Source of the DNA: a virus
IMG/VR virus record: IMGVR_UViG_3300031951_000003
Span: 124,001-188,000 of that record
DNA: 64,000 bases
Strand: one strand, 5' to 3'
Below the pieces are notes generated by a model that did not search any database, was not told where the DNA came from, and saw only the letters and a list, made by a program, of their open reading frames with translations. Positions within the stretch are counted from its first letter, which is position 1. Every line of letters begins with the position of its first letter. The translations under genes and the position numbers were made by a program. This document shows, piece after piece, positions 14,080 to 60,704 of the stretch.

Positions 14080-14083
14080 AAAG

Positions 14084-14917: not shown

Positions 14918-14922
14918 GATAA

Positions 14923-16103: not shown

Positions 16104-16119
16104 AACTTTCAAATTTTAG

Positions 16120-16192: not shown

Positions 16193-16198
16193 TATTTG

Positions 16199-16271: not shown

Positions 16272-16277
16272 GATGTG

Positions 16278-16350
16278 AGCGGAAGACCAGGCTCGAACTG
16301 GCCACCCCGACCTTGGCAAGGTCGTGCTCTACCGAATGAGCTACTTCCGC
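16278..16350 (-). tRNA. tRNA-Gly(GCC)
   Basis: Acceptor GCGGAAG/CTTCCGC, anticodon loop TTGCCAA. Nearly identical arms to the next tRNA-Gly. Confidence 0.94.
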
Positions 16351-16359
16351 AATTTTCTG

Positions 16360-16432
16360 AGCGGGAGACCAGGCTCGAACTGGCCACCTATAGCTTGGAA
16401 GGCTATCGCTCTACCAAATGAGCTACTCCCGC
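16360..16432 (-). tRNA. tRNA-Gly(TCC)
   Basis: Acceptor GCGGGAG/CTCCCGC, anticodon loop CTTCCAA. Same T arm as tRNA-Gly(GCC), so the pair looks like a tandem duplication. Confidence 0.94.
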
Positions 16433-16459
16433 ATATTCCGTTTTTCCTTCACATTTAGC

Positions 16460-16518
16460 CCAATCACCAGTGAAACAATGATTGGATTTTGGATGGAGAA
16501 GTCTGCAAGGATTTCTCC
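16460..16518. ncRNA. Two-hairpin spacer RNA between tRNA-Gly and tRNA-Asp
   Basis: CCAATCA-ccagtgaaacaa-TGATTGG (16460-16485) and GGAGAA/TTCTCC (16495-16518). No reading frame. Confidence 0.45.
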
Positions 16519-16551
16519 CATTAGACCGTTACCACGGACAAACTCTACCAG

Positions 16552-16625
16552 CGGAACGGACGGGGCTCGAACCCGCGACCTCTTGCGTGACAGGCAAGCA
16601 TTCTAGCCAACTGAACTACCGCTCC
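16552..16625 (-). tRNA. tRNA-Asp(GTC)
   Basis: Acceptor GGAGCGG/CCGTTCC, anticodon loop CTGTCAC, discriminator G. Confidence 0.93.
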
Positions 16626-16630
16626 ATTTG

Positions 16631-16817
16631 AACAGGTTTTTTGTGTCCTTTTACACATCATGACCAACATATTACTACATTGGTGGTTACATTTTCGTCT
16701 TTGGTTAATTACTCCTGACTTATAGTAAACACTACCCTCACCGCTCTGATACCGCGAATCAAGACGGCGTCTTTGGGATTCATATACCGTGGGGTTCCAC
16801 CACAGTCTTCACCTGTT
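16631..16817. ncRNA. Large structured spacer RNA between tRNA-Asp and tRNA-Asn
   Basis: The ends AACAGGT (16631-16637) and ACCTGTT (16811-16817) can pair. Inside are TGTGT/ACACA, ACCAA/TTGGT and a self-complementary AAGACG-g-CGTCTT. Nearly 190 nt, no reading frame. Direction is probably minus, as for the flanking tRNAs. Confidence 0.5.
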
Positions 16818-16820
16818 TTG

Positions 16821-16892
16821 CGTCCTCTCATGGGCTCGAACCATGGACCCTCTCGTTAACAGCGAGATGCTCTACCGCTGAGCTAAGAAGAC
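16821..16892 (-). tRNA. tRNA-Asn(GTT)
   Basis: Acceptor GTCTTCT/AGAGGAC, anticodon loop CTGTTAA, discriminator G. Confidence 0.93.
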
Positions 16893-16898
16893 GTTTTG

Positions 16899-16972
16899 TT
16901 GGGAAGACAGGATTCGAACCTGCGGCCCCCTGGTCCCAAACCAGGTGCTCTACCGGGCTGAGCCACTTCCCA
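16899..16972 (-). tRNA. tRNA-Pro(TGG)
   Basis: Acceptor TGGGAAG/CTTCCCA, anticodon loop TTTGGGA. First gene of the array in the direction of transcription. Confidence 0.93.
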
Positions 16973-19464: not shown

Positions 19465-21135
19465 ATGAGGGTATTAGGATTTTCTGTCGGACACGACAAA
19501 GGTGCTGTTATTGTTGAAAATGGAAAAGTCTTGATTGGAATTACTCAAGAAAGAATTTCAAGAATCAAACATGATGGAGCACATCAAGGTGGATTAATTC
19601 CTGCCGAATCTATAAGATATTGTCTTGAAAATTCAGGATATACTTTTAGAGATATCGATTTATTTGTCTACAGCACAACTGAAATTGTTGATGACGTTCA
19701 AAAAAAGTTTATCGAAGAATTTCAGTTTGACCCTACGGGTAAATTCGAGTTTTTACCTCATCATTTGGCCCACGCATATTCTTCTTTTTTTAGTTCAGGA
19801 TTCGATGATGCCGTTGTGGTTGTTGCAGACGCATCGGGTAGTATTTTGAATGAAAAAAATAAATTACCTGAGTGGTATCCGAAAGTTAGTAGGAAAGGTC
19901 TCAATCACGAAGAAGATTGGACAGAAGCAATTTCAATTTATCATTTTAATAAAAATGATTACAAAGAGGTTTATAAGAAATGGATAAAATATCCTGTTCC
20001 GATTGATACTAACGAAGATGTTTCTGTCGGAACCGTTTACTCTGAAGGTTCACTTCAATTAATTTATGAACCCAATACCAATTCTTGGCCTGCAGGTAAA
20101 CTGATGGGACTTGCGTCATATGCTGACAAGGACATAGTCGAGGAAGCTCCACATTATATTGTTGAAACAGAAGATGGAGATATTTTCATTCCAAATAATA
20201 GAATATATCCCAAAGTGACATATGATTCAGATTTTTTCTCAAGAGCTTGTGTTGCTGGAATATATCAAAGGGAACAAGAAAGGGTATCTCTAATGTTAGC
20301 GAAGAAAGCAAAGGAATTGACCGATTCTGAAAATATTTGCGTGGCAGGTGGGTCTTTCCTTAATTGTAATTCTAACGAAAAAATCCTCAACTCAGGATTG
20401 TTTGAGGGTTGTTACTTCATACCTCCCTCTGACGATAGTGGAATCCCTTTAGGGTGCGCCTGGTATGGTTATCAACTTATGAGTCCGATTGAAAAAAATA
20501 ATTTTCTTTCTCCTTACATAGGTAAAAATTATTCTAACAATGATATTGTTTCAGCAATAAACCAATACCCAAATTTATATCATGAAAGATTTGATGATTT
20601 TGACGAACTTGTTGATAAAGTCTCACATTGGTTAACTCAAAATAGGGTCATAGGCTGGTTTCAAGACCAATCTGAAATTGGACCTAGAGCTCTTGGTAAT
20701 CGTTCAATCTTAGCATCACCTATCAACAAATGGATGACAGGTCACATTAATTCAGACATCAAAAAAAGAGAATGGTATAGACCGTTTGCACCCGCCGTGT
20801 TATTTGAACACCAAAGTGAAATTTTTGATTCTAATGTTTTTTCTCCATATATGTTGGTTACGACTAACGTAAAAGAATCTTGGAGAGATAAAATACCTGC
20901 AGTAACTCACATTGACGGTTCCGCTAGACATCAATCGGTTTCAGAAAAATCTAATTATAAATTTTATAAATTAATCGAGAGTTTTTATAACAAAACAGGA
21001 GTTCCAGTTTTACTCAACACGAGTTTCAATGGCCCTCATGAACCAATTGTTGAAACTCCAAAGAATGCAATTGACACCATGTTAAGTTGTAAACTCGATT
21101 ACTTAGTAATAGGAAATTATTTAATCAAAAGATAG
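19465..21135 (+). CDS. Carbamoyltransferase (NodU/CmcH/TobZ family), first copy
   Basis: 556 aa, full length for the family. The N-terminal Kae1-like domain has FSVGHDKGAV and LPHHLAHAYSS (the metal-binding HHxAHA); the C-terminal domain has GWFQDQSEIGPRALGNRSIL and VLLNTSFN near the end. These enzymes make carbamoyl-AMP from carbamoyl phosphate and pass the carbamoyl group to a hydroxyl on a sugar, antibiotic or nucleoside. In phages a relative carbamoylates 5-hydroxymethylcytosine in DNA. A second enzyme follows after one base. Confidence 0.88.
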   Translation: MRVLGFSVGHDKGAVIVENGKVLIGITQERISRIKHDGAHQGGLIPAESIRYCLENSGYTFRDIDLFVYSTTEIVDDVQKKFIEEFQFDPTGKFEFLPHHLAHAYSSFFSSGFDDAVVVVADASGSILNEKNKLPEWYPKVSRKGLNHEEDWTEAISIYHFNKNDYKEVYKKWIKYPVPIDTNEDVSVGTVYSEGSLQLIYEPNTNSWPAGKLMGLASYADKDIVEEAPHYIVETEDGDIFIPNNRIYPKVTYDSDFFSRACVAGIYQREQERVSLMLAKKAKELTDSENICVAGGSFLNCNSNEKILNSGLFEGCYFIPPSDDSGIPLGCAWYGYQLMSPIEKNNFLSPYIGKNYSNNDIVSAINQYPNLYHERFDDFDELVDKVSHWLTQNRVIGWFQDQSEIGPRALGNRSILASPINKWMTGHINSDIKKREWYRPFAPAVLFEHQSEIFDSNVFSPYMLVTTNVKESWRDKIPAVTHIDGSARHQSVSEKSNYKFYKLIESFYNKTGVPVLLNTSFNGPHEPIVETPKNAIDTMLSCKLDYLVIGNYLIKR

Positions 21136-21136
21136 T

Positions 21137-22729
21137 ATGAGCACGATTTATGGTTTTTTTGGTGGTTCTCATAGTCCATCCGCGTGTTTAATTAGAAATG
21201 GAAAGATTGTATCATGTATAGAAGAAGAAAGATTAACCAGAATTAAGGCTGGTGACAACTTCGACAGTTTTCCAGAATTATCCTCAGAAGAAATTCAAAA
21301 ATACACAGGTCTTAATGTTCACGATGCTGATTATAGGGTTTTTGTTGAGCCGGTAATCGATGCGTTCGCAAAAAAATTGACCAAGGATAATTTTGAGAGA
21401 GTTGGTCATCACGATGCTCATTGCTATGGTTCTTATTTTACAAGTGGTATGGATGGAAAAGTTTTAAGTATTTCATACGACGGTGGAGGAGACAAAACCG
21501 TAATGAAAGTCTACCTTTGTGAAGATGGTAAAATGAATTTGGCATATTCTTATGATTTTGCAACAACGGGAAGTATACCTCATCTTTGGGCATTCAGTGT
21601 GACCTCAATTAGAGGATATAACGAGAATGGAGAGAGCATTTGGAAAATGTGTAAAGACGAAGGGAAACTTATGGGAATGGCACCTGATGGGTTTTACGAT
21701 GAGAGGATATATAAAATTCTGAATTCAATAATCGATTACAAAGACTTCAAATTTTTCCCATCGAATACGGGTGCGAAAGCTAGATTTGTTGTAGACACAA
21801 TGTTCAGGAAAGGTTATTTCGACTCACAAGAGAAACTTCAGGTTTTTTCGTTTAACTTACAAAAATTAACTGAAGACCTTTTCCTTAATTTTTTAGACGA
21901 CCTTCACACTAGATTTCCCGATTATAAAAAATTATGTTTTTCTGGTGGTTTGTTTGCCAACGTAAAATTAAATCAAAAAATTAATCAACTACCTTGGGTT
22001 GAGGAAATATATATTGTTCCACCTATGGGAGACGAAGGGTTAAGCTTAGGTGCATGTATAAAGAAAGCAGTAGACTTGGGTGAAATCACAAAACCATTCA
22101 AATTGGATAATGTTTTTTTTGGTAAAGAGTATGATGATGACCAAATTTCATTGATTAGTCAAAAATATAATTTTGAGAAAAAGATATATAACCCTTCTGA
22201 AATCGCTAAGAATATTGATGAGGGTGAAATTATCGGTTGGTTTCAACACGGATTTGAATTTGGTCCACGAGCCTTGGGTGGTAGAAGTATTCTTATGAGA
22301 CCAACAAGCTCAGACACTCATAGTAAATTAAACAAAAGGTTGAAAAGACATGATTCGATGCCATTTGCACCTATTGTAATGTCAGAATATTTTGATGAAA
22401 TTTTCTTTGAAACAAAGTCAAAATACTCCGCAGAATTTATGACTATTTGTTATCAAACTAAAGAGAATTGGATTGAAAAAATACCTGCGGTAATCCAAAA
22501 ATCAGATAAGACTGCGAGACCTCAGATTGTAAAAAGAGAGAAGAACTACAAATTTTGGGAAATACTTGATGAATACTATAAAATTTCAAATATACCTGTT
22601 TTGTTAAATACTTCTTTCAACACTCACAATGAACCAATTGTAGATAACCCCGAACAAGCCTTTTCTAAATTACAAGATAAAACTTTAGATAAATTAGTTA
22701 TTGGAAATTATGTTTACACAAATAGGTGA
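21137..22729 (+). CDS. Carbamoyltransferase (NodU/CmcH/TobZ family), second copy
   Basis: 530 aa. It has FFGGSHSPSACLI at the start, VGHHDAHCYGS for the metal site, and GWFQHGFEFGPRALGGRSIL with PVLLNTSFN in the C-terminal domain. The divergence from the first copy suggests different acceptors or a two-step scheme rather than recent duplication. Substrate unknown. Confidence 0.87.
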   Translation: MSTIYGFFGGSHSPSACLIRNGKIVSCIEEERLTRIKAGDNFDSFPELSSEEIQKYTGLNVHDADYRVFVEPVIDAFAKKLTKDNFERVGHHDAHCYGSYFTSGMDGKVLSISYDGGGDKTVMKVYLCEDGKMNLAYSYDFATTGSIPHLWAFSVTSIRGYNENGESIWKMCKDEGKLMGMAPDGFYDERIYKILNSIIDYKDFKFFPSNTGAKARFVVDTMFRKGYFDSQEKLQVFSFNLQKLTEDLFLNFLDDLHTRFPDYKKLCFSGGLFANVKLNQKINQLPWVEEIYIVPPMGDEGLSLGACIKKAVDLGEITKPFKLDNVFFGKEYDDDQISLISQKYNFEKKIYNPSEIAKNIDEGEIIGWFQHGFEFGPRALGGRSILMRPTSSDTHSKLNKRLKRHDSMPFAPIVMSEYFDEIFFETKSKYSAEFMTICYQTKENWIEKIPAVIQKSDKTARPQIVKREKNYKFWEILDEYYKISNIPVLLNTSFNTHNEPIVDNPEQAFSKLQDKTLDKLVIGNYVYTNR

Positions 22730-40653: not shown

Positions 40654-40946
40654 GATTCAATTTCTTCTATTTCCACCACTAAAGGTCTGTTACCTTTTAT
40701 AACTCTATGCCAAACTAATTTAGGGATGTAAAATTGTTTGGCATCCTCTAACTTAGTTGGCAAACAATCTTCAATTTGAAATTCCCATCCACCTCCTTCA
40801 ACAACAGTAACTTTTCTATCCTTAAGGTCTTGATGCCATTTTAGTTCTTCTGAATCAACATCAATATTGAAAACCCTTCGAATTTTACCATCGATAAATT
40901 CTTGTTCAAATGGAAAATTTGTTATTTCCTCTGACTTAATTACCAT
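40650..40946 (-). CDS. Cupin-like protein, 98 aa
   Basis: DSEELKWHQDLKDRKVTVVEGGGWEFQ and the closing KLVWHRVIKGNRPLVVEIEE follow the strand order of a small cupin barrel (H..D and a late H). Overlaps both neighbours, so it is one message from 41557 or 42666 to 40078. Confidence 0.55.
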   Translation of the reverse strand: MVIKSEEITNFPFEQEFIDGKIRRVFNIDVDSEELKWHQDLKDRKVTVVEGGGWEFQIEDCLPTKLEDAKQFYIPKLVWHRVIKGNRPLVVEIEEIES

Positions 40947-41557
40947 GAGTTTGAAGATGAAAGTCCGAGTTGTTTAGCATATCTCCCCACATTACAGGAC
41001 CAATATCCTGCTGTAGTTCTATCTTTCTTTTGGTCACATCTGTGTCTGGCTCTAAAAGATTTAGCCGCCCCTTTATTTCTATTTCTAACTTTCAAATTAG
41101 GGTCACCAAAAGTAACCTTTTTTACTCCACCACCTTTAGATTTTACATATACTGCAAACTTCTTTGGTCCACCTGGTGTTCGGAATGGTTTACCTAATTT
41201 AACGTTTTTTCCTCTATGTTTAGCCTCTCCCAAAACTTCCTCATCATCTAACTCAAATGGGGCATCTAAATAAACAATCTGTTCACCAATCTGAACTCTC
41301 TTACCCAAATCAGATTCAACCATCATAGTATCTTCTTCATTTAATCTAATCTTACCTTGTTTCCATAAATTTCTCACTTCATTTACCAAATCAAAATATC
41401 CCTCCGAATAAACTCTAAAAATATTGTTGGTAAGGGATAATTTATTTTCTATATGATATTTTAGTGCTTCTGAAATTTTAACTTCTTCCCTTAGGATTAG
41501 TGTTTTTTCTAATTCTGCATTCAATGTTTCAGAAATTATTTTTCTTAGGTTTTTCAT
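40940..41557 (-). CDS. Candidate packaged protein with DUF5872-like C-terminus, 205 aa
   Basis: The N-terminus MKNLRKIISETLNAELEK is leader-like (ISE or NAE). The last 85 residues (KHRGKNVKLGKPFRTPGG, AAKSFRARHRCDQKKDRTT, GYWSCNVGRY) match a small basic Cys-containing domain frequent in phage structural proteins, which I believe is DUF5872. Probably binds nucleic acid. Starts 2 nt after the PPK2 stop. Confidence 0.65.
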   Translation of the reverse strand: MKNLRKIISETLNAELEKTLILREEVKISEALKYHIENKLSLTNNIFRVYSEGYFDLVNEVRNLWKQGKIRLNEEDTMMVESDLGKRVQIGEQIVYLDAPFELDDEEVLGEAKHRGKNVKLGKPFRTPGGPKKFAVYVKSKGGGVKKVTFGDPNLKVRNRNKGAAKSFRARHRCDQKKDRTTAGYWSCNVGRYAKQLGLSSSNSW

Positions 41558-41559: not shown

Positions 41560-42666
41560 TTAAGAATTTGGTTTTAGAACTGCCAACACTTCAGGAAATT
41601 CTTTATCAAGAACTTTTTCATTTTTCCCTTCGTATGGTATGTTTTGTAGAACATATCTAATGGCATTTAATCCAGACACTCTTTTGTCTTCAGCATCAAT
41701 TATAACCCAAGGGTGATTAAGTGTGGATGTTTTATCGAACAATTTTTCTTTGAACTCTGTGAATCTATCCCACAAGTCTTGCATTTTTGAGTCGTTAGGT
41801 GAGTATTTCCAATATTTGAGAGGAGATTGTTGTCTCATTTTGAATCTTCTTGCTTGAGTGTCTTTGTCGATTGAAAACCAAAGTTTGAATAAATAATCTC
41901 CGTCTTTTACCAAATCATTCTCAAAATCGGCTACATTCTCCATAAAATCTTCATACTCTTCAGGGTTTCCATATCCCATAACAGGTTCTATTAATCCTCT
42001 ATTATACCAACTTCTGTCAAACAAGTTAATCATTCCTGGTCTGATTTGTTTTCTGTAACGATTCCACCAATCCTTTCTATCTTCAGGTGTCGGAACTCCT
42101 AAAGCAATTACATTATAGTATCTTGGATTTAAATTTTCGACAAATTTTTTGATTGTTGCACCTTTACCTGCGGAATCTCTACCTTCGAAAACTATAATCA
42201 CTGTCTTTCCTGTGTGTTTCAACCATTCCTGTAGTTTCAATAATTCAACTTGTAATTCATAAAGCTCCTTCCTGAAAACCTTTTTTGGTATAATTGAAGG
42301 CTCTTCAATTTCGAACTCATAGTCTTCACTTTCAGGTTCTATGCCATATCCACTTCTATCTCTGTATCTGAGAGATGAGATTATTTTACCGAGGTAGTCC
42401 TCAACATTTTTTTTCTTGTCCCCTTTTTTCAACAAAACTTTTCTTAGTCCACGATTCATCATATCAAAATCAATAATTTGTTTGGTCGCAAATTTTGATA
42501 TATCAATTAACATTCTTACAACTTTCGGGCTAAATAATTTCAAAAATTGGAGTGTCTCCACGAATGATTTCAGGTTCACATTCATCTTTGCTCCCTCCAA
42601 TGAATTTTCTTCATTTACAACACCCATCAAAGATTTAAACCTATCTATTTCTGACAATAATTTCAT
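41560..42666 (-). CDS. ppk2: Polyphosphate kinase 2 with phage N-terminal extension
   Basis: 368 aa. FEGRDSAGKGATIKKF is the Walker A loop and NLFDRSWYNRGLIEP the Walker B/lid region of PPK2; KYWKYSPNDSKMQDLWDRF completes the family core. PPK2 moves phosphate between polyphosphate and nucleotides. The first 100 residues are extra and begin MKLLSEIDRFKSLMGVVNEE, like a capsid-targeting leader (VNE), so the enzyme may enter the host with the DNA. The last point is inference. Confidence 0.88.
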   Translation of the reverse strand: MKLLSEIDRFKSLMGVVNEENSLEGAKMNVNLKSFVETLQFLKLFSPKVVRMLIDISKFATKQIIDFDMMNRGLRKVLLKKGDKKKNVEDYLGKIISSLRYRDRSGYGIEPESEDYEFEIEEPSIIPKKVFRKELYELQVELLKLQEWLKHTGKTVIIVFEGRDSAGKGATIKKFVENLNPRYYNVIALGVPTPEDRKDWWNRYRKQIRPGMINLFDRSWYNRGLIEPVMGYGNPEEYEDFMENVADFENDLVKDGDYLFKLWFSIDKDTQARRFKMRQQSPLKYWKYSPNDSKMQDLWDRFTEFKEKLFDKTSTLNHPWVIIDAEDKRVSGLNAIRYVLQNIPYEGKNEKVLDKEFPEVLAVLKPNS

Positions 42667-42708: not shown

Positions 42709-42716
42709 TATTTATT
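42709..42716 (+). promoter_or_regulatory. TATTTATT element of the surface-protein operon
   Basis: 20 nt before the ATG at 42737. Confidence 0.45.
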
Positions 42717-42736: not shown

Positions 42737-43237
42737 ATGAAATTATTATTCTCTTTCATATTAGCAACATTTTTGCTAATCCCTGGCCACCACAAAATTC
42801 AAGAACCTAAAAAGGTATTTTTATTACCAATCGAAAATAAAATTGTCATAGGTCCGATGGCAAAAAATCGTAACCTGACGTTTGGTGTTAAAAATATAGT
42901 CTTAGAAAATCTCCAAGAATTAAATTACACCCTCTCAGATTCATTACATAAATCAGACTTTTCTTTGAAGATAGAAATTGTTTATTTCGACATTATGCAA
43001 ACAAATACGGGAATATCTGTGTTCCATAAAAACGATAATGAAACAATCCTTAGAATTAAAGGAACATTGTATAATCAATCAGGTAAAAAATTAAACGATT
43101 ACCTATCTACAGGAAAATCCTCGGAAATCTCTATGTCTACACTGATAATTTCAGAAGGGGGTTCAATAAATCAGCAGTCCGTTTCGAATGTTATAAAAAA
43201 GTCCTCAGAGACATTAATTTTAAATCTTTTCAAGTAA
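42737..43237 (+). CDS. Exported CsgG-like protein (short), 166 aa
   Basis: Signal peptide MKLLFSFILATFLLIPGHH. The segment FGVKNIVLENLQELNY aligns with LGVANIVLEYLSDLNRF of the protein at 46031, so the two are paralogues; strands DFSLKIEIVYFDI and LRIKGTLYN follow the CsgG order. CsgG forms outer-membrane channels for curli. First gene of the surface operon. Confidence 0.55.
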   Translation: MKLLFSFILATFLLIPGHHKIQEPKKVFLLPIENKIVIGPMAKNRNLTFGVKNIVLENLQELNYTLSDSLHKSDFSLKIEIVYFDIMQTNTGISVFHKNDNETILRIKGTLYNQSGKKLNDYLSTGKSSEISMSTLIISEGGSINQQSVSNVIKKSSETLILNLFK

Positions 43238-43238
43238 A

Positions 43239-45146
43239 ATGAAAAAAACCCTTTTGGGGTTGTTACTATTAATAAGTGGTATTAATGGTTACGCACAAAC
43301 CCCAGAAATAGGGCATTTTCAACAACTCGCTACAGTGCGAAGAGGAGACACATTGGATGTTGCATGGTATTACAAACCAGCACAAGGTGTAGACATCCGT
43401 GGTTTCCAAGTCGATTGGCAGTTTAAGAAAACCCTATTTACCCACATTTCAACCACGGTGGATGCTTCAGTGAATAGCAATACACCTGTTGTTGATTATA
43501 AATCATGGGAAAGCTTCAAGTTCGATTCCTACTCCAATGGGAATTACAACTATACAGCTGACGCAGATTGGACCATCGGAAGAAACTATTTGATTTTATC
43601 AAATGGTAATTCCGTAAGTTCAAATGGTTATATAATTCACAACAAATACAAAATTAATAACGTAGGTCCGAACTACGTTTCAGATTCCATAACCTTAAAT
43701 TGGGCTAGGATGATAAAATTAGATGGGACATCAATAGGTGATAACGTAGCAACACTATCATATAAAAAATTAGCAGTTAAACTTCTTGGTAACTTAACAA
43801 TCTCTGGAAAAGTCTTTTTACCTAGCTCAGTGACTTCATCAGGTTTATTACCAACAATCAATTGTTATGATTTCAATACAAATCAACTAATTTCCTCTAC
43901 AGTTCCTAATTCATCTACAGGTAATTACACTTTAACAAATATTGATGAAAATAAGAAATACAAGATTGAGTTGAAATTCCCACAAGATAGTTTGGCTTCT
44001 TTGAGAGATAGAGCTGTTACAATTTCAGATGCGGTAAAAACATATAATGAATTCACTTCAACAGATGTAAATCAAGTTTATGGTCGACAGTTTTTAAGAC
44101 ATCCTCTTTCATATTTGATAGCAGATTTGAATTTGACAGGAACTTTGGATGCTGGAGACCCATATGGAATTTACGCATCAGTATCAGGTCTTAGACCAAT
44201 TGATTTAACAAAATTGATTAATGTTTTCAAAAAGAGTGAGTATGATAGTTTAGTTACAGTATCCTCTACATGGTCAACTTGGAGCTCATACTCTAATCGA
44301 GGTATAATAGTTACAGATTCTGTTGGACTGACAAATCTTACGTTAGATTTGAAATACTTCATACTAGGAGACGTTGATAGAACTCACTCTTCTCCAGTGT
44401 TTGATGCACAAGGTGGTGAAATTATGGCTGCAAATTTCTCAGGAAATTTCAATATTGATATACCAAATCAATATGTTGTTGGTCAACCAATGTATGTTCC
44501 ATTCAATATTCAAACAAATGGATTACAAAACACAGGTCTACAGTTCGAAATGTCTTACGATATCAACAAGGTTAAATTTGAAGAAATACAATCCAATTTG
44601 GGTGGCCCGTGGTTACAATATGTGAATCACGACCCTCAAAAAGGAATAATCCGTTTCGGTGGAATGAATAATCAAAAAACGGGGGCACTGATTGGAGCGG
44701 TGACCCCGTTTAAATTAAAATTTACCGCTGTCAATCCAAGTGAGGATATCGCCACATCAGTTTATGTAAGAAAATTAATGGATGCGTCGCATTCGAATGG
44801 TGACCACTTCAACATAACACTAAATTCAAGTGTAACAGTCCTTACATATAGAGCCATGATGGTTGTAACACCGTCAGAAACAGACAAAATCACGTTTAGA
44901 CTTTTTCCAAATCCAACAGAGAGTTCGATTAACTTAGAAATAAATTTACCAAAACAAACAGTGGTCAATGCATCTATTTATGATATAGGTGGTAAAGAAA
45001 TACTTAATTTAGGTAAAATCCAATCTAATGATGTTGACGTGAAAATAATTAAAAGATTGAACGTTCAAGGTTTAGCCAATGGAGTTTATCAATTAGTAAT
45101 TTTTGACTCCAAGAATAAAACAACTAAACAATTTATAAAAATTTAA
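43239..45146 (+). CDS. Exported cohesin-like protein with type IX sorting domain
   Basis: 635 aa. Signal peptide to about 20 (INGYAQ), a carboxypeptidase-regulatory-like and dockerin-like middle (LNLTGTLDAGDPYG, near 300), a cohesin-like domain about 395-530 (PFNIQTNGLQNTGLQFEMSY) and a C-terminal domain from about 550: FRLFPNPTESSINLEI, IYDIGGKEI, LANGVYQLVI and KQFIKI. The last matches the T9SS type A sorting domain, used to anchor or release proteins at the surface of Bacteroidota. Its presence in viral DNA is unusual. Confidence 0.8.
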   Translation: MKKTLLGLLLLISGINGYAQTPEIGHFQQLATVRRGDTLDVAWYYKPAQGVDIRGFQVDWQFKKTLFTHISTTVDASVNSNTPVVDYKSWESFKFDSYSNGNYNYTADADWTIGRNYLILSNGNSVSSNGYIIHNKYKINNVGPNYVSDSITLNWARMIKLDGTSIGDNVATLSYKKLAVKLLGNLTISGKVFLPSSVTSSGLLPTINCYDFNTNQLISSTVPNSSTGNYTLTNIDENKKYKIELKFPQDSLASLRDRAVTISDAVKTYNEFTSTDVNQVYGRQFLRHPLSYLIADLNLTGTLDAGDPYGIYASVSGLRPIDLTKLINVFKKSEYDSLVTVSSTWSTWSSYSNRGIIVTDSVGLTNLTLDLKYFILGDVDRTHSSPVFDAQGGEIMAANFSGNFNIDIPNQYVVGQPMYVPFNIQTNGLQNTGLQFEMSYDINKVKFEEIQSNLGGPWLQYVNHDPQKGIIRFGGMNNQKTGALIGAVTPFKLKFTAVNPSEDIATSVYVRKLMDASHSNGDHFNITLNSSVTVLTYRAMMVVTPSETDKITFRLFPNPTESSINLEINLPKQTVVNASIYDIGGKEILNLGKIQSNDVDVKIIKRLNVQGLANGVYQLVIFDSKNKTTKQFIKI

Positions 45147-45150
45147 AAAA

Positions 45151-45480
45151 ATGTCAGAAGAACAAACACAAGAGCATAATGACGGAACATGGTCAGGTCT
45201 TAAAAAAACAATCGTAGGAACATTAGGAACAGTAGTTGCTGGGGGAGGTGTGTGGTTAAGCACATTATTATTTGGTGGAAATTCGGATGAGGGCTCTCAA
45301 CAACCTCAACCTGCAACACCAAACATTATCATCAACAACACTCAACAACAGCAACAAGCACCAGCTGGTAAGACAGTAGTCATAAAAGAAGTAAGTCCTT
45401 CATCTTCACCTGCTCAACCAAAAAAGGAAGAGCCGAAACCAAAAAAAGATGACTGGACTAAAGAAGACCCAAAATGGTAA
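45151..45480 (+). CDS. Membrane protein with Gln/Pro-rich tail, 109 aa
   Basis: One Gly-rich membrane segment (about 22-42, TLGTVVAGGGVWLSTLLF), then low complexity (NNTQQQQQAP, PKKEEPKPKKDDW). Small size, single membrane segment and charged tail would suit a holin, antiholin or anchor. Fourth nt after the previous stop. Confidence 0.6.
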   Translation: MSEEQTQEHNDGTWSGLKKTIVGTLGTVVAGGGVWLSTLLFGGNSDEGSQQPQPATPNIIINNTQQQQQAPAGKTVVIKEVSPSSSPAQPKKEEPKPKKDDWTKEDPKW

Positions 45481-45483
45481 TTT

Positions 45484-46029
45484 ATGCAACCTAATAATGG
45501 ATTTAGAGAACTCTTGAGTTCCATGATGAAAAGAAGATGGTGGATTACCGCATTAGTCCTTGGTGGATTTGTGGTGATAATCGGGGCCATTTTCATGGCA
45601 ATTTTTGAACAAAGTGCAATTAGCGGCGAATGGAAAGAATTATTACTTTTATTACTCGGGGCATTTATCGGGTCATATGGTAAAATCATCGACTATTGGT
45701 TTAGTGATACGGATAAAGACAAAATGTTAGTTCAGAAAATGGATGAGGAAGATGGTATCTCATTTTCAAACACTCAAGACGGGACCGTAAAACCAAAAGA
45801 AGAATCAGTAGCAATACTACCAAAATCTGAGGAATACCAAACCACACCATCAAAAACGGGTGTAGAGATAGACGAGGATGGTGATGGTATAATGGATGGT
45901 ATAGATGAAGATGGTGATGGTATAATCGACATGTATTTCGAACATCGTCAGTGTGAACACGTATGGGGAGACATGGACGGTGATGGGGATGAAGAATGTC
46001 TAAAATGTGGTCTAATTAAAAATATTTAA
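45484..46029 (+). CDS. Membrane protein with calcium-binding-type repeats, 181 aa
   Basis: Two membrane segments (about 20-40 and 52-68). Then DEDGDGIMDGIDEDGDGIID, two DxDxDG units of the thrombospondin type-3 or dockerin calcium type, and a C4-like end (CEHVWGD, EECLKCG). The repeat echoes the dockerin-like pieces of the neighbouring surface proteins. Confidence 0.65.
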   Translation: MQPNNGFRELLSSMMKRRWWITALVLGGFVVIIGAIFMAIFEQSAISGEWKELLLLLLGAFIGSYGKIIDYWFSDTDKDKMLVQKMDEEDGISFSNTQDGTVKPKEESVAILPKSEEYQTTPSKTGVEIDEDGDGIMDGIDEDGDGIIDMYFEHRQCEHVWGDMDGDGDEECLKCGLIKNI

Positions 46030-46030
46030 A

Positions 46031-46783
46031 ATGAAAAACTTTTTCAAAAGAAATCAGTATGCAATCATTACAATAATCTGGTTTCTGTTAATGTTTTTGA
46101 TTGCAATTAATTTACCTGCCCAGACTGTTGGAACAACAAAGACTGAACAATATAAAGCAAGTTTTGAAACAAAAATCAATATTGACTCATTGATAGACTA
46201 TGATGGTCCTCAAGTTCCTATTCAAATATTAACAATTGGAATAAGTGATGAGGTATATGAACAATACCCTGAACTTAAAGAGAAGAAAGTTGGTTTGGGA
46301 GTTGCGAATATTGTTTTGGAATACTTGTCCGACTTGAATAGATTTACATTCACTGAAGATAAAACTGAAATTAAAAACAGAATGGTTAAACAATTTCAGG
46401 CTTCTCAGAGTGGAATTTCTCAAGACAAATTAGATGGCAGGGGAAAAATAAGATTAGCACATTATTTTGTCACTGTAGAGGTCTATGATTTTTCTGTGTC
46501 GGAAGATGAAACGGTAAATTTAAAGGATGGTGTCAAGAATACTGTCAATACGAGACTTGGTCTTCAAGTTAGATTTACAGATGCAGAAACAGGTGAAATA
46601 GTTGCTGCAAGTGGTCTTGGTGAAGCAAAAACAGTGAGAGAGCTAACATTACTTAACGATGACAATCTAAGTGATGTAAAGTTCAATCAATCAACTATAG
46701 GAATTACCACGAAAAAAGCATTAGATATTGCTTGTAGTAGAATTCTTGTGAGATTAATTAAAAAGGGTAAATTCCCAAGATAA
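46031..46783 (+). CDS. CsgG-like exported protein, 250 aa
   Basis: N-terminal signal or anchor (about 8-32, ending LPAQTVG) with no lipobox Cys, unlike E. coli CsgG. The body has FTFTEDKTEI, HYFVTVEVYDFSVSE, LGLQVRFTDAETGEIVAASGLGEAK and SRILVRLIKKGKF, following CsgG domain order. A channel or adaptor in the outer membrane is the natural reading. Confidence 0.6.
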   Translation: MKNFFKRNQYAIITIIWFLLMFLIAINLPAQTVGTTKTEQYKASFETKINIDSLIDYDGPQVPIQILTIGISDEVYEQYPELKEKKVGLGVANIVLEYLSDLNRFTFTEDKTEIKNRMVKQFQASQSGISQDKLDGRGKIRLAHYFVTVEVYDFSVSEDETVNLKDGVKNTVNTRLGLQVRFTDAETGEIVAASGLGEAKTVRELTLLNDDNLSDVKFNQSTIGITTKKALDIACSRILVRLIKKGKFPR

Positions 46784-48159
46784 TGTGCAAAAGATTAAGA
46801 ACTTTTTTAAGTATATTCTTTATCTTATTTCTCAGCTCGAAAGTTGAGGGTCAAGTTATGACCACATCATTTACTGACCCGTGTACCAAAGCTGTCACTA
46901 ATTTTACAATACCTCTCCAAGGAGGGACTGTGATATATTTTTATGGTCAATCAAGAACATTCACCGCAGCAGATGTTGCCAGCGGTGAATTTACCAATTG
47001 GACCAACCAAGTTTATGGGGAATACAGAAAAGTTTCCCCATGTTCGGTTCAATCTACGAATGTAATAAGAAATCAAATAACTTCGCAAGTTATCGGGAAC
47101 GTAATCTCAAGTGTTGTTGGGGCTTTGGCATCCGAAACATCAGGAAACTTAGTAACGGACAATTCAAAATCATCAGATAGTAAAAAAACAAAAAAGAACA
47201 ATGAAAATAGTAATAATTCTAATATCTCTCCCTCTTCTAATAGTGGTAATTCTGGGAATGTTGGGTCTACTGGCGGACTTGGCGGTAGCAGTTCGAACAA
47301 TAGTTCGGGGGATAAAAACAGCAATAGTTCTAATGGTGGCGGTGGGAATAGCACATCTTCAACTTCTCAAGGAGGGAATCAAAATAATCAAGGTGAAAAT
47401 TCTTCAACTAATTCAAAAAATCAAAATGAAGAAGTAGCTGTTACTACTCAGATGAACGTTGACTCAAAGAACGAAAAGGGTGGTAGTAATGGGGGTTCGA
47501 AGGCAACAAGGAATAATCCTGTTGTAGTATCCTCCGATTTAACAAGTGCACAAAATTTAGATAAATCATTTACGGGTATCATTAATGTTGGAATGTCACA
47601 GTCCTCGATGACTGGAGCATCGAGTTGGGGGATAACTTCCATGGTTTGGTTTAATTTTAAACAATTCGCTTTGAATGGGAGATACACCAAAATTCATTTC
47701 AGTAATAATGGAAAACTGAAATGGATTCACAACATCAATCTGACTGGCTTGTATACCTATGGTAATTACATGGGATTTGTTGGTTATAGTGCAATTTTGA
47801 ATGCTGGAAAATATGGAGTAACGGGTATGAACGTGAGTGGTATGATAACAAAAGTCACCGACGATAATAATCTTTTCATAAGTCCATCCATTACCGCCTT
47901 TTATACAAGACCTTTCAAATCGGGAAAAAGATTAATTATTTCACCCGAATTATACATAATATCAACACCCCTTGTTTATTCATCGGTCGATAAAGTCACT
48001 GTAAGTGATAGAACGTTTAGTGGATTTTTGGGTTCGGGTTTTGATTATCAACTTACAAGAAGATTTAAAATAAACGTTAATTATAAAGCAAACCTTAGCA
48101 CAAACCCTGAATTTCCAATCTTGTCGTTCTTTTTAATCGGAAGTAAAATAAATCTATGA
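46783..48159 (+). CDS. Exported protein with Ser/Asn/Gly-rich middle and barrel-like end, 458 aa
   Basis: Signal peptide MCKRLRTFLSIFFILFLSS ending KVEGQ. Residues about 125-235 are low complexity (NSSGDKNSNSSNGGGG). The C-terminal 200 residues alternate (NLTGLYTYGNYMGFVGY, FLGSGFDYQLTRRFKINVNYKA) like a beta-barrel ending in KINL. Its ATG overlaps the previous stop by one base. Confidence 0.65.
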   Translation: MCKRLRTFLSIFFILFLSSKVEGQVMTTSFTDPCTKAVTNFTIPLQGGTVIYFYGQSRTFTAADVASGEFTNWTNQVYGEYRKVSPCSVQSTNVIRNQITSQVIGNVISSVVGALASETSGNLVTDNSKSSDSKKTKKNNENSNNSNISPSSNSGNSGNVGSTGGLGGSSSNNSSGDKNSNSSNGGGGNSTSSTSQGGNQNNQGENSSTNSKNQNEEVAVTTQMNVDSKNEKGGSNGGSKATRNNPVVVSSDLTSAQNLDKSFTGIINVGMSQSSMTGASSWGITSMVWFNFKQFALNGRYTKIHFSNNGKLKWIHNINLTGLYTYGNYMGFVGYSAILNAGKYGVTGMNVSGMITKVTDDNNLFISPSITAFYTRPFKSGKRLIISPELYIISTPLVYSSVDKVTVSDRTFSGFLGSGFDYQLTRRFKINVNYKANLSTNPEFPILSFFLIGSKINL

Positions 48160-49589
48160 GAAAATTAATTCTATTATTTCTTCTACTATCATGTTTGGTT
48201 GGATTTTCTCAATCAATAACGGCCCCTGTATCGAGAACATATCAAGTTAATACTTCGAGTCAGGACGCTAGTGGATTTGTTATTAACGGATTTGGTTCTG
48301 AAACGCTTCTAACTTCTATCGGTTTGGTAAATCCACCTGCGGGGGTTACATTTTCAATAACCACAACATTAGGTCTCTCATTTACCACGGGATATAACTC
48401 ATGGAATAATTTGACAAGGATAAGTTTCACGGGAACCATGACAAGTATCAATAATGCACTTGCATCACTTAAAATTAATACGGGTTCATCGACTGGTAAT
48501 GTTCAAATATCGGTTTCAACAACAATAAATCCTGTAGGTTATTATTATAACCCAACCAACGGACACTTTTACAGACCAATTTCTTCACCCGCCACATATG
48601 ACAATTCGAAGGTCTTATCAAATCAACAAACATTTAAAGGTCAAACAGGGTATCTCGTCACAATTACCTCTTCTACAGAGGAGAACTTCATTTTTGCTAA
48701 CGTCCCTCAGAGTAACATTTGGTTTGCACTCAGCGATAGATTACAAGAGGGTTATTGGAGAGTAGATGCTGGTCCTGAGAATGGAACACTTATCAATATT
48801 GGAAATTACAACGGGAATCCACAATCAGGGACTTACCAAAATTGGTGTGGTGGTGAACCTAATGATGCGGGTGGGGAGGATTATGCGGTAACTAAATGGG
48901 GTAGTGGAGGTTGTTGGAACGACTTACCTGGAAGTTGGTCGAACCCCTATATCGTAGAATTTGGAACATGGTCCAATCCTCAAGATGCGACTTTCACCGA
49001 TTTTTATGTTGCAAACACAACTAATAATGTCGCAATAACTAACACTCTTTCAGGAACTGTCTCAATTCCATCTTTATCCCCACTACCAACGTTATCACTA
49101 TATAGGGTTGTGAGCAATTCTGACGTGTTTGTAGAGACGAAAACAGTTAATTCCAATGGAACATACTCATTTACTCTGCCGTCTCAAAATTCGACCTATA
49201 AATTAGTCCCTTCATTAACGACTCAAGGTATATCTAATGTAGATTTCAATTTAGTTTTTGATGAAATCAAAAATGTTAATACACCTCCAATCACACAGTC
49301 AGGTTTGATTATGACAGGGACTAAACAATGGAAAGCTGCAGATGTCAACGAAGATGGTTTAGTTAATTTAGCCGACGCTTATCTAGTTGCCGCACACATA
49401 ACTAATTTTAGACCGATAACGAAGGTATTGTGGTTTCAACCTTCATCATATGACTCAATCACCAAGAACAATTTTGGTTCTGTGAGCCCCGTTACTTTTT
49501 TTTCAGTCACAGTTACAACTTCGAATGTAACTCAAAACATAAAATATTGTATTTTGGGTGATGTCAATCTTTCTCATTCTTCACAATAA
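48156..49589 (+). CDS. Exported C-type-lectin-like and dockerin-like protein, 477 aa
   Basis: Signal peptide ending GFSQ. Residues about 130-270 form a C-type lectin fold: GHFYRPIS, YLVTITSSTEENF, WFALSDR, WCGGEPNDAGGEDYAV (EPN carbohydrate motif) and GGCWNDLP. AADVNEDGLVNLADAYLVAAH near 390 is dockerin-like. The end YCILGDVNLSHSS matches YFILGDVDRTHSS of the protein at 43239, but there the cohesin and sorting domains follow; here the protein stops. Confidence 0.75.
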   Translation: MRKLILLFLLLSCLVGFSQSITAPVSRTYQVNTSSQDASGFVINGFGSETLLTSIGLVNPPAGVTFSITTTLGLSFTTGYNSWNNLTRISFTGTMTSINNALASLKINTGSSTGNVQISVSTTINPVGYYYNPTNGHFYRPISSPATYDNSKVLSNQQTFKGQTGYLVTITSSTEENFIFANVPQSNIWFALSDRLQEGYWRVDAGPENGTLINIGNYNGNPQSGTYQNWCGGEPNDAGGEDYAVTKWGSGGCWNDLPGSWSNPYIVEFGTWSNPQDATFTDFYVANTTNNVAITNTLSGTVSIPSLSPLPTLSLYRVVSNSDVFVETKTVNSNGTYSFTLPSQNSTYKLVPSLTTQGISNVDFNLVFDEIKNVNTPPITQSGLIMTGTKQWKAADVNEDGLVNLADAYLVAAHITNFRPITKVLWFQPSSYDSITKNNFGSVSPVTFFSVTVTTSNVTQNIKYCILGDVNLSHSSQ

Positions 49590-49594: not shown

Positions 49595-49602
49595 TATTTA
49601 TT
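49595..49602 (+). promoter_or_regulatory. TATTTATT late-type promoter element
   Basis: 15 nt before the endolysin ATG at 49618. Confidence 0.45.
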
Positions 49603-49617: not shown

Positions 49618-50457
49618 ATGATACTAAAAGTTGGGTCTAAAGGAGAGGACGTAAAACAACTCCAACAGAAATTAGGGTTGGGCGCCGATGGTATATTCGG
49701 AAGGGGAACCGAAGAAGCGGTTAAAGCTTTTCAATTAAAAAATGGTTTGAACCCTGATGGGATTGTTGGTCCGAATACTTGGCAAAAGATTATGGGACAA
49801 GGTATTACCACCCCTCAAGTTGCCCCTCAAGTTGCTTCTCAAGTTGCCCCTCAAGTCGGAGGATTAAAATTAGAAAAATTGAAAGGTCATATACCTGACA
49901 ATGTAATTGCACAAATACCTGATACAGCATCTAAATTCGGAATCGACACTCCCTTGAAACTTGCTCACTTCTTGGCACAATGTGGTCATGAGAGTGCGGG
50001 TTTCAAAGTTGTAAACGAAAATTTGAACTATTCCGCGAGTGGTTTGAAAGGTATTTTCGGAAAATATTTTAAGGAATCAGGATTGGCTGAGTCATATCAA
50101 AGAAATCCTCAGAAGATTGCAAGTAGAGTTTATGGGGGAAGAATGGGAAATGGACCTGAGTCAACAGGAGAAGGTTTTAAATTTAGAGGTAGAGGATATA
50201 TTCAGTTGACAGGTAAAGACAACTACACTGCTTTTGGAAAAGCAATAAATGAAGATGTTGTATCTAACCCTGATTTGGTATCGACGAAATATCCATTATT
50301 GTCTGCAGCTTGGTTCTTCAGTAAAAATTGCTTGAAAAAATGTGTTGACGCTTCTGATGCAACGGTAACCTCTGTCACAAAGTGTGTCAATGGAGGAACT
50401 ATCGGACTACCCGATAGATTAAAACACTTCAAAGAATATTACAAACTTCTGTCTTAG
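49618..50457 (+). CDS. GH19 endolysin with peptidoglycan-binding domain
   Basis: 279 aa, no signal peptide. Residues 1-62 are peptidoglycan-binding domain 1 (GADGIFGRGTEEAVKAFQ). A linker of repeated PQVA units (about 63-80) leads to a GH19 chitinase/lysozyme domain: LAQCGHESAGF with the catalytic Glu and GEGFKFRGRGYIQLTG with the second acid. GH19 phage enzymes cut the glycan strand of peptidoglycan. Export would need a holin. Confidence 0.9.
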   Translation: MILKVGSKGEDVKQLQQKLGLGADGIFGRGTEEAVKAFQLKNGLNPDGIVGPNTWQKIMGQGITTPQVAPQVASQVAPQVGGLKLEKLKGHIPDNVIAQIPDTASKFGIDTPLKLAHFLAQCGHESAGFKVVNENLNYSASGLKGIFGKYFKESGLAESYQRNPQKIASRVYGGRMGNGPESTGEGFKFRGRGYIQLTGKDNYTAFGKAINEDVVSNPDLVSTKYPLLSAAWFFSKNCLKKCVDASDATVTSVTKCVNGGTIGLPDRLKHFKEYYKLLS

Positions 50458-58140: not shown

Positions 58141-58779
58141 ATGAAAAATTTGATATTATTTCCGATTCTTTGTTTGAGTTTTATTTTCTCAAACGCTCAA
58201 GACACTGTAAGAATAAAACACACAAACTATACTACAGTATTTTCTAAATCTAAAAAATATCCGGTTCTTGTTGAATGGTGGGTTACAAAAAAAATGGTTG
58301 ATTGCCCGACACCACTCAAAAGGAAGGATAATTTCAAACCTGACCCAAAGTTAGTTGTTGATACTGACATTTCCAAAGATTATGTTGGTAGTGGTTTTGA
58401 CAGGGGTCATATGATGCCAGCTGCGGACAATTTATGTCAAACTCAACAAGTCCAAGATGAATGTTTTTATTTTTCCAACATGTCCGCACAATATCACAGC
58501 CTTAATGCTGGAGATTGGAAATCTCTTGAAACCTTGGTTCGTGACGAGGCAAAAACTCAGGATTCAATAAAGGTGTGGTGTGGTAATATCGGTGAAATTC
58601 AAAAAATTGGAAAGGTTTCGGTTCCTAAACAATGCTGGAAGGTCATTTACATTAAAAAGCAGAACGTTTGGAAGTCTTACCTGTTCGAAAACGATAAGTC
58701 AAAACCTGATGGAATCAAAAATAATGAAGTAACTTTATCTGTGATAGAAAAATTAACAGGGCTCAAGTTCAAATTATAG
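58141..58779 (+). CDS. Exported DNA/RNA non-specific endonuclease
   Basis: 212 aa. Signal peptide MKNLILFPILCLSFIFSNAQ. GFDRGHMMPAADN is the DRGH active-site motif of NUC1-type nucleases; YFSNMSAQYHSLNAGDWKSLE continues the family with its metal-binding Asn. It would act in the periplasm or outside the cell, degrading incoming rival DNA or free DNA. Convergent with the GH25 gene, 6-nt overlap. Confidence 0.88.
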   Translation: MKNLILFPILCLSFIFSNAQDTVRIKHTNYTTVFSKSKKYPVLVEWWVTKKMVDCPTPLKRKDNFKPDPKLVVDTDISKDYVGSGFDRGHMMPAADNLCQTQQVQDECFYFSNMSAQYHSLNAGDWKSLETLVRDEAKTQDSIKVWCGNIGEIQKIGKVSVPKQCWKVIYIKKQNVWKSYLFENDKSKPDGIKNNEVTLSVIEKLTGLKFKL

Positions 58780-59463
58780 ATTCTGTAAATCTTGAACAGT
58801 ACCTTTAAAATAATTCATATCAACGTTTCCATTAATTCCCTTAATCCTTCCTGTAGTTGAGTGTTGCCAAAATTGATTTTCTTGGTTTTGAAAAATGTAT
58901 GGTTCAGAGTTTCCATGTTTTAATAACCAAAAAGTATTGTCGTTAAAATTATCTTTTATGAAATCATATTGTATTTTTCCATTCAAGTAGAATATAGGAC
59001 TTTTACCATATCTCTTTTTTAACAAATCAGTGAAAACCTTCAATTCTCGAATAACATGAACTTTTCTTTCTTCAGGACACACACTGAGATTTAATAAATC
59101 AATAGAGGGAGGCAACATCCCTTTTAAAACTGGTACAATTTCACTGTAGTTTTTAAATTGTTGGGTGCCAGAGCTTGAAATAGAGAATCTGTGATATGCA
59201 CTTGTCCTTATCTTTCTTGAAAGGGCTCCGTTCAGATTTTTTCTGAACATTCGGTCTTTATGACTACTACCTTCAGATGACTTTATGAAGACGAATTTTA
59301 CTTTAGTTGTATCAATTGAACTCCAATCTATATTACCTTGATATTTGGAAATGTCGATGCCTGAGAGATAGGTTACATTGGTTTGTTTTTTGGTTTCACA
59401 TACATTTTTACCGAAAAACATAGATAGTACCAAAACCGAAGAAAGAATTAAATATTTTATCAT
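58774..59463 (-). CDS. GH25 muramidase-like protein, catalytic Glu apparently missing
   Basis: 229 aa with N-terminal signal or anchor (about 1-22). SGIDISKYQGNIDW is the GH25 start with the first Asp, FVFIKSSEGSSHKD follows. The usual DxE acid motif appears as PPSIDLLNLS, with Leu where Glu is expected. FWQHSTTGRIKGINGNVDMNYF is the normal end. It may be a binding or inactive relative. Confidence 0.75.
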   Translation of the reverse strand: MIKYLILSSVLVLSMFFGKNVCETKKQTNVTYLSGIDISKYQGNIDWSSIDTTKVKFVFIKSSEGSSHKDRMFRKNLNGALSRKIRTSAYHRFSISSSGTQQFKNYSEIVPVLKGMLPPSIDLLNLSVCPEERKVHVIRELKVFTDLLKKRYGKSPIFYLNGKIQYDFIKDNFNDNTFWLLKHGNSEPYIFQNQENQFWQHSTTGRIKGINGNVDMNYFKGTVQDLQNL

Positions 59464-59519: not shown

Positions 59520-60704
59520 ATGGGAAGAATTGTCAAATTGAAAGAATCAGACTTAGTTAATATCATTAATAAAATAATGAACGAACAAAAAGTCACTTCA
59601 CAAATCATCAAACCGAGATATGGTGTTGACCCATCTACAGCACCCTCGGATTATTTAGGGAAAGGCAGACAATTTGAAAAAGAATCTAAGTTCAAAAAAC
59701 TAACGGATTTTTCAAATTATGAAAATATGGTGAGTAAAATACCTAATATGGAATGCTTACCAAACAATCAAATGAGATATTTCGTTTTATTCGTTACAGC
59801 AAAGAAAAAAGACTTAATGAAAGATTTAGGAGTCGATGAAAAAACACTGAGTTATTTAACCAAAATTGCCATCGCAATTATGGGTTGGCAGTCTGATTTT
59901 GGTAAAACGGACAAACTCTATGATATTAAGCCTATTGCAAAATACATAAACCCTTGGGATGTTTATAACACAGTAGACGGAATTCTAAAAAATATTGTTG
60001 GTAGTGGGACAGCAGCAAAAGGGACTGAATGGCTTGCTAAAAAATTTGGTGTTGATGAGCCATCTTTTGGTCCTGCGGAATTCATGCCATCAACATTTGC
60101 CAAAACGGGTGTTGAAAAAAAATATGGTAAGGGTATGGAAACTGTTATTGGGTCAGGTCTTGCAGTGATATACAACATGTTGTCAAAATACAGACAAGCA
60201 GAAAAAAATGGGTTGAGTAGTCAACCCTCAGTAAATCAAATTGCAAAAACTAAGGGTATTTATGGGTGGGTAGGTAATATTGGGACAGGAAATCATTTAT
60301 GGGATGTGGCAATAGCATCTCACACTTATCCAGATGAAAAAATTTTAGTAAAATATTGTGCAACTAACAGACCCGATTTCATGGCGCCTTGTTCAAATAG
60401 TACTTATGAACCATTCAGTTCTGATTCAGCTTGGCAATCTTTCAGAAAACATAAGTGGAACCAAATTTATTATGGTAAAAATAAAAATTTGGATGTTTTT
60501 CCAGGTAAATTGACTGTAAATCGCGGACAACAAATTCCCAACTATTTACCTTACCTAACAGGAACTCATGGAACAATATCGGGTCAAGAAGAAGGGATAA
60601 TGGACAATTTGCGTTTAATTAGTAGAACTAACGACCGTATAAATCAATTCAAGTGTGTGGACGATGCAATTAGAACTAACGTTTCCTATCCTAAATTTTC
60701 TTAA
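59520..60704 (+). CDS. Transglycosylase-like protein with leader, Glu-to-Gln at the active site
   Basis: 394 aa. Leader MGRIVKLKESDLVNIINKIM then NEQ. Residues about 117-205 follow the lysozyme fold of the protein at 62891: AIMGWQSDFGK here against GIIGRETLFR there, and FGPAEFMPSTF against LGSAQFTEKTW. The catalytic Glu position is Gln. Both share PSVNxIAxTKGI and VAIASHTYP/LAIVAHNMP. Perhaps a virion wall-binding paralogue. Confidence 0.7.
   Translation: MGRIVKLKESDLVNIINKIMNEQKVTSQIIKPRYGVDPSTAPSDYLGKGRQFEKESKFKKLTDFSNYENMVSKIPNMECLPNNQMRYFVLFVTAKKKDLMKDLGVDEKTLSYLTKIAIAIMGWQSDFGKTDKLYDIKPIAKYINPWDVYNTVDGILKNIVGSGTAAKGTEWLAKKFGVDEPSFGPAEFMPSTFAKTGVEKKYGKGMETVIGSGLAVIYNMLSKYRQAEKNGLSSQPSVNQIAKTKGIYGWVGNIGTGNHLWDVAIASHTYPDEKILVKYCATNRPDFMAPCSNSTYEPFSSDSAWQSFRKHKWNQIYYGKNKNLDVFPGKLTVNRGQQIPNYLPYLTGTHGTISGQEEGIMDNLRLISRTNDRINQFKCVDDAIRTNVSYPKFS

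Follow-up and report, generated by a model that had tools for sequence, protein, structure and literature searches.

A phage-dedicated seven-gene envelope module with cohesin-like, lectin and type IX sorting domains shared by Bacteroidota phages

Introduction

Pelagiphages carry curli (type VIII secretion system) gene clusters with CsgG (PMC9599517, PMC7029224, PMC9004378), and Cryophage carries cargo of the type IX secretion system (T9SS; PMC7468147). Here we describe a module of seven genes, A to G, in a window of 64,000 nucleotides, which comprises bases 124001–188000 of the 321,139-base IMG/VR virus record IMGVR_UViG_3300031951_000003 and whose source is a giant phage of Bacteroidota bacteria. 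The original prediction, made from the letters of the window, placed here seven adjacent forward genes for exported or membrane proteins, and all seven open reading frames are found where it had put them (42737–49589), abutting on the plus strand with intergenic gaps of −4 to +4 nt. An endolysin gene begins 28 nt past the end of G on the same strand. The features of the locus are:

42709–42715, plus strand: TATTTAT candidate promoter motif, 28 nt 5′ of the ATG of A; the sole copy preceding any of A–G
42737–43237, plus strand: A, 166 residues, signal peptide, short predicted CsgG-fold paralogue of E
43239–45146, plus strand: B, 635 residues, exported, cohesin-like protein with T9SS tail
45151–45480, plus strand: C, 109 residues, single N-in transmembrane helix
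45484–46029, plus strand: D, 181 residues, two transmembrane helices, holin-like
46031–46783, plus strand: E, 250 residues, signal peptide, predicted CsgG-fold protein
46783–48159, plus strand: F, 458 residues, signal peptide, predicted outer-membrane barrel at 47518–48156
48156–49589, plus strand: G, 477 residues, exported C-type lectin (lectin domain at 48639–48953)
49595–49601, plus strand: second TATTTAT, 23 nt 5′ of the endolysin gene
49618–50457, plus strand: endolysin, PG_binding_1 and GH19 (phrog_181, 1e-65; PF01471; PF00182)

Results

Conservation and distribution of the module

Relatives of E occur in 499 IMG/VR stretches. Two queries, E of the window and E of a distant phage contig (L084), retrieved 163 loci, which form 53 lineages at 90% identity and keep the gene order largely intact. 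Cohesin and dockerin-like domains are present in 52 of these lineages, C in 50, A in 49, F in 47, D in 42 and the lectin in 37, with all module genes on the same strand as E. The gene order was thus found, as sought, in other phages, and its recurrence in 53 lineages is far beyond chance. Mean identity is highest for E (0.77), followed by D (0.71), by B, C and F (near 0.57), and is lower for G and A. Among cultured phages the module occurs only in Immutovirus, where Flavobacterium phage immuto (NC_055915) encodes the lectin (gp013), the cohesin/T9SS protein (gp014–015), C (gp016), E (gp017), F (gp018) and A (gp019), its lectin, cohesin and T9SS domains all scoring above Pfam cut-offs. The immuto locus differs in that B is split in two genes, no D was found nearby and the endolysin lies about 8 kb downstream; we found no paper describing its module genes as a unit.

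In bacteria, a search of 395 Bacteroidia and 198 same-phylum genomes gave strong E matches only in G001 and G003, the genomes behind L083 and L085, and one extra weak match (E-value 3e-4). The three genome contigs with E relatives comprise two phage-like ones (L083 and L084) and one Ignavibacteriales chromosome (L085) with an E/A-like pair only. The module itself is absent from the roughly 590 bacterial genomes sampled and is not an operon restricted to bacterial chromosomes. A–G is a phage-dedicated module common to hundreds of Bacteroidota phages. A bacterial operon was considered and rejected, as the sole chromosomal E homologue found is paired with an A-like gene and lacks the other five genes of the module; used as a query, this homologue retrieved no further viral loci. 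An estimate of prevalence by way of terminase was uninformative because the contigs are mostly short. The chromosomal CsgG-like gene pair, in an Ignavibacteriales metagenome-assembled genome (L085, 9995–16034), lies near a CHASE2-adenylate cyclase, and pelagiphage curli clusters likewise carry a cyclase (PMC9599517).

Domains and surface anchoring of B and G

B consists of a cohesin-like domain, a CNA/fn3-like domain, a dockerin-like element, a second cohesin-like domain and a T9SS C-terminal domain (44901–45137). This architecture is the commonest among the B-type proteins of the first locus set (n = 54 proteins), in which domain order is conserved. The predicted T9SS sorting domain is borne out by a Por_Secre_tail (PF18962) match above the Pfam cut-off (E-value 3e-9, 37.4 bits against a cut-off of 27; 1.7e-11 in a second scan), and a Sec signal peptide visible in the sequence completes the features of T9SS cargo. 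Pfam Cohesin (PF00963) does not match B of the window; homologues in L084 (5e-9) and immuto (6e-9) pass its cut-off, so that the proposed cohesin-like domain is real at the family level. The N-terminal cohesin-like domain of B and its own dockerin-like element had both gone unlisted in the original prediction.

The C-type lectin is likewise upheld, G matching Lectin_C (PF00059) above the cut-off (E-value 1.1e-5, score 26.5 against 22.6). The C terminus of G (about 49281–49586) is CNA-like and dockerin-like. Dockerin_1 (PF00404) matches G below threshold (2e-3, 18.6 against 22.9) and matches neither B nor D. Of the two dockerin-like segments originally proposed, in G and D, the former therefore falls short of the Pfam cut-off and the latter is not a dockerin: the DxDGDG loops of D sit on a two-transmembrane inner-membrane protein, beside a zinc-ribbon-like CxH...CxxC motif, and many homologues lack them. 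The lectin domain is conserved (0.76) and not hypervariable, and the T9SS tail drifts (0.45). G was also considered as the target of a diversity-generating retroelement, a candidate rejected given the conserved lectin and the lack of a reverse transcriptase in the 321-kb record.

The mode of anchoring varies between phages. Among the first 83 loci, 57 have a fused T9SS tail, and small lipoproteins of two families, c24 and c91, never occur alongside it; 18 loci are tail-less, and all of these have one or two c24/c91 lipoproteins directly after B/G. The single exception to the rule, L072, is cut by a contig end, and every complete locus retains a surface-anchoring element. Counted by lineage, 45 have the tail only, 5 the lipoprotein only and none both, with four changes on the E tree. 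The c24/c91 lipoproteins match the tail model weakly; the tail of immuto B was overlooked by a custom model and detected by Pfam. It would appear that one anchor, the lipoprotein, has replaced the other, and the strict exclusivity of the two suggests that surface anchoring is itself selected.

The predicted CsgG-fold pair A and E

The original prediction of two CsgG-like paralogues holds as to the relation of A to E and the fold of E, and fails as to membership of the CsgG family. A and E are homologous (hhalign profile–profile probability 94.6%, E-value 7e-8) and have in common the motif G-V-x-N-I-V-L-E-x-L. In a Pfam scan neither matches CsgG (PF03783). The AlphaFold2 monomer model of E (pLDDT 74) retrieves CsgG in all of its first 15 matches in the PDB (at the top 4uv2 and 6l7a, E-value 1e-6, probability 1.00), with global template-modelling scores of only 0.33–0.41, and a phage CsgG is its top match in BFVD. 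A sequence intermediate is provided by the Ignavibacteriales chromosomal homologue, which is 38% identical to E, adjoins an A-like gene and passes PF03783 (28.6 against a cut-off of 20.8). Alignment of a profile of Escherichia coli and HTVC008M CsgG by hhalign was not significant (0.9%), this two-sequence template having low power. A lipobox (Cys at +1) was sought in A and E of the window and none was found; a lipobox-like string occurs in 8 of 53 E homologues, at least one of them doubtful. As modelled, E is CsgG-like in fold and kin to CsgG by structure and intermediate sequence, not a filed member of the family.

Membrane proteins C, D and F

Neither C nor D has a signal peptide. C carries a tail rich in Q, P and K, which ends in a W conserved in the alignment and is probably periplasmic; by topology C is a possible i-spanin, and none of A, E and F of the window has a lipobox. 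Alignments of D show a very conserved core (YWFSDTDKDKMLVQKMDEEDG) and an optional tail with acidic Ca-loops (DxDGDG) and a zinc-ribbon-like CxH..CxxC motif. D and the c7/c26 proteins have two hydrophobic segments each and no significant holin match, the PHROG holin match of D being sub-threshold (0.36). F is composed of a signal peptide, an N-terminal domain with a Cys pair, a low-complexity linker and a barrel, modelled by AlphaFold2 with 12 long strands (pLDDT 88). The PDB neighbours of the modelled barrel are PcoB, FapF and NanC, a likeness that indicates a fold class and not a family assignment. F was examined as a CsgF and rejected: its N-terminal domain resembles CsgF by eye (FxDPC; QxxxSQxIxxxxxSVV), and hhalign gave 1.5% with a two-sequence template.

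A late-type promoter motif and lysis neighbours

The minus strand carries most of the T4-type structural genes, read from the sequence by eye, which are located around 3–56 and 103–118 kb of the contig (for example, a sheath-like gene at 50.7 kb). The motif TATTTAT, scored by strand and position, precedes 15 of 31 structural-block genes and none of 12 replication/nucleotide genes (Fisher p = 0.003; chance background about 1.6%), gene sets that were assigned by reading sequences. The motif could act in translation, and its class specificity is the key observation, by which it is a candidate late promoter. It precedes A and the endolysin gene, as it would in a lysis cassette, and none of B–G, so that A–G is read as a single late operon. 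Across the other lineages the opening gene of the module has the motif in 20 of 53, and internal genes have it at background frequency. A generic scan for sigma-70 promoters and terminators gave promoter matches at chance level. Over the whole contig, TATTTAT peaks sharply at 11–13 and 20–24 nt 5′ of gene starts, on the coding strand only, and the transcripts are perhaps leaderless.

Of the 39 lineages with full flanks, 21 have an endolysin within 8 kb of E, 21 a two-transmembrane holin-like gene and 33 at least one of the two. The endolysin is directly upstream of B in six loci (L106, L119, L122, L127, L146 and L159). Accessory genes in or beside the module elsewhere encode a secreted nuclease, a class-3 lipase, a TonB-type receptor, an exported HExxH protein and a second barrel; they fit an envelope or egress theme without deciding it.

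Other features of the window and related loci

Several of these accessory types have counterparts that we record here. A TonB-receptor/lipoprotein pair (c33/c39) lies inside the module in some phages, and the window itself encodes a TonB-receptor-like outer-membrane barrel with CarboxypepD_reg domains (2060–5335, plus strand; 1091 residues; OMP_b-brl_4, 6e-53), its gene preceded at 28 nt by a late-type motif. A secreted non-specific nuclease (58141–58779, plus strand; Endonuclease_NS, 5e-37), whose counterpart adjoins the module in immuto and several other lineages, is followed by a GH25 lysozyme with a signal peptide (58774–59463, minus strand). The exported HExxH protein (about 150 residues; L140, 3537–3995; HESLHLYLRH) has no Pfam match, often stands directly after A and has homologues in 56 of the 80 loci L105–L184; given its motif, it may be a secreted metallopeptidase that is associated with the module in that lineage.

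N-terminal peptides of the type (K/R)xxKLTESDLxxLVxKVxxE / MKYIITESQ or MNLxENIxRVKELMG recur in at least 16 proteins, among them those at 59520–60704 (plus strand), 40940–41557 and 41560–42666 (both minus strand) and others at 100–225 kb of the contig; many have TATTTAT 11–13 nt before the start. These peptides recall T4 capsid-targeting leaders, and dozens of proteins may be packaged in the capsid. The window also contains a phage transfer-messenger RNA (1442–1835, plus strand; Rfam RF00023, 76 bits; tag AEEATVVA), a large tRNA array (10989–16972, minus strand; 24 tRNA genes in the window) and two adjacent Nol-like carbamoyltransferase genes (19465–22729, plus strand; phrog_1601, 2e-105 and 2e-87).

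Discussion

Proposed function and alternatives

Parts for each layer of the envelope, late timing and conserved surface anchoring together favour trans-envelope display of cohesin and lectin domains. We tentatively read A–G as a late surface-display operon that is used around egress, an account to which we would grant somewhat less than an even chance. C and D would be inner-membrane components, A and E would be placed at the periplasmic or outer-membrane side and probably form a ring, and F would be an outer-membrane barrel with a periplasmic N-terminal domain. The host T9SS would deliver B to the outer surface, where it would present its cohesin-type domains, and the lectin G would be attached to or co-assembled with them; phages with another host or route would use surface lipoproteins instead of the T9SS tail. 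Action around egress is suggested by the timing shared with the endolysin and holin-like genes, and, like the assembly and the cohesin–dockerin contacts, is something we infer. Such a layer might mask glycans on the host surface and thereby keep progeny from being captured by the dying cell or its debris, much as the Llp protein of phage T5 keeps progeny off debris receptors; it might hold cells and progeny together; or it might exclude rivals. The data do not discriminate among these three benefits. The more specific picture of a cohesin–lectin polymer, built on the dying host by a CsgG-fold ring, the barrel and the inner-membrane parts with the host T9SS and constituting a new machine for egress, is doubtful. 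Several observations weigh against surface display: the dockerin scores are sub-threshold, E has neither pore residues nor a lipobox, adjacency to lysis genes fits a role in lysis equally well, and late timing also fits virion proteins, a role that the signal peptides and T9SS tail make unlikely.

The neighbouring genes are nearly as compatible with lysis machinery, in which C and D would be holin- or i-spanin-like, E, A and F would open or destabilise the outer membrane, and B and G would be accessory. The late-type motif common to A and the endolysin, the endolysin directly upstream of B in six loci, the two-transmembrane holin-like genes inside the module and the accessory lipase, nuclease and HExxH protein all point that way, and CsgG/CsgF of phage Melnitz have been proposed as a lysis pore (PMC9004378). 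Lysis leaves the T9SS targeting, cohesins and lectin unexplained, however, and the whole-protein conservation of these parts (0.54–0.58) matches that of C and F; moreover, an o-spanin lipobox is found in neither A nor F, nor in most E, and the endolysin is non-adjacent in about half of the lineages. We regard lysis as rather unlikely and as a serious rival. Virion fibres or decorations formed by B, F and G would explain the late-type motif, as on structural genes, and are the least probable of the accounts given here: besides their Sec signal peptides and T9SS tail, they lack a capsid-leader-like N terminus, and the module lies on the opposite strand, at a distance from the main blocks of structural genes.

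The original prediction also envisaged a coat that blocks other phages or makes cells stick; its claims that these genes belong to phages, form a module and are directed to the surface are supported, and the coat against other phages is weakened by the late motif and the lysis neighbours. A surface layer that hides receptors from competitors for as long as the infected cell keeps producing phage would suit outer-surface lectin and cohesin proteins with a barrel, and the secreted nuclease near the module here and adjoining it in immuto; exclusion has been suggested for pelagiphage curli (PMC9599517). The late-type promoter and the endolysin and holin-like neighbours point instead to egress rather than to early exclusion. 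Exclusion factors are usually early, and a coat formed early to keep out other phages is less probable than a role at egress; superinfection exclusion as a whole appears improbable. Aggregation, in which a surface polymer would stick infected cells to kin or particles and so capture siblings, has in its favour the lectin and the cohesin and dockerin-like elements of a single chain, which could polymerise, as well as an analogous proposal for pelagiphage curli (PMC7029224). Phage Melnitz, with its curli pore, showed no clumping (PMC9004378), and we consider aggregation more improbable still.

If the surface-display reading is true, a widespread group of Bacteroidota phages sets aside a conserved operon, expressed late, for the outside of the infected cell, and the host T9SS is borrowed for it. 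Little is known of how phages of Bacteroidota get past or handle the outer membrane during lysis; named, conserved genes are now available for that question, as is a cultured carrier in which to test it, phage immuto, grown on Flavobacterium sp. LMO8.

Comparison with known systems

The author of the original prediction was aware of no comparable system described in phages. As a general statement this was too strong, given pelagiphage curli and Cryophage; for this particular gene set it holds in the open-licence literature searched, subscription papers and preprints lying outside that coverage. Two bacterial systems resemble single parts of the module. Like F, FapF, the functional-amyloid secretion pore of Pseudomonas, has a 12-stranded barrel after an N-terminal domain and linker, but the match is weak (E-value about 6e-4), is shared with PcoB and NanC and involves unrelated sequences, so that it probably reflects fold class only. 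Like the cellulosome, the module combines a cohesin-like domain with dockerin-like segments bearing Ca-loops; unlike it, its dockerin scores fall below the cut-off, no enzymes are attached and the pairing is putative.

The closest described kind is the curli cluster of pelagiphages and of the methylophage Melnitz, in which a phage CsgG-fold protein likewise belongs to a conserved multi-gene envelope cluster, and for which the same set of roles, aggregation, exclusion and lysis timing, has been proposed. The module differs from it in every non-CsgG part. A and E have no CsgG Pfam match or significant profile match, the N-terminal domain of F is not detectably CsgF, and curlin, FecR, kinase and cyclase genes are missing (among the eight proteins scanned none matched curlin, CsgA/B), whereas the parts that carry cohesin, lectin and T9SS domains are new. 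Cryophage resembles the module in that phage proteins with T9SS tails, like B, use host secretion; its cargo consists of variable enzymes, whereas here one fixed cohesin protein is part of a seven-gene module. The module is a distinct variant beside the curli of pelagiphages and the T9SS cargo of Cryophage.

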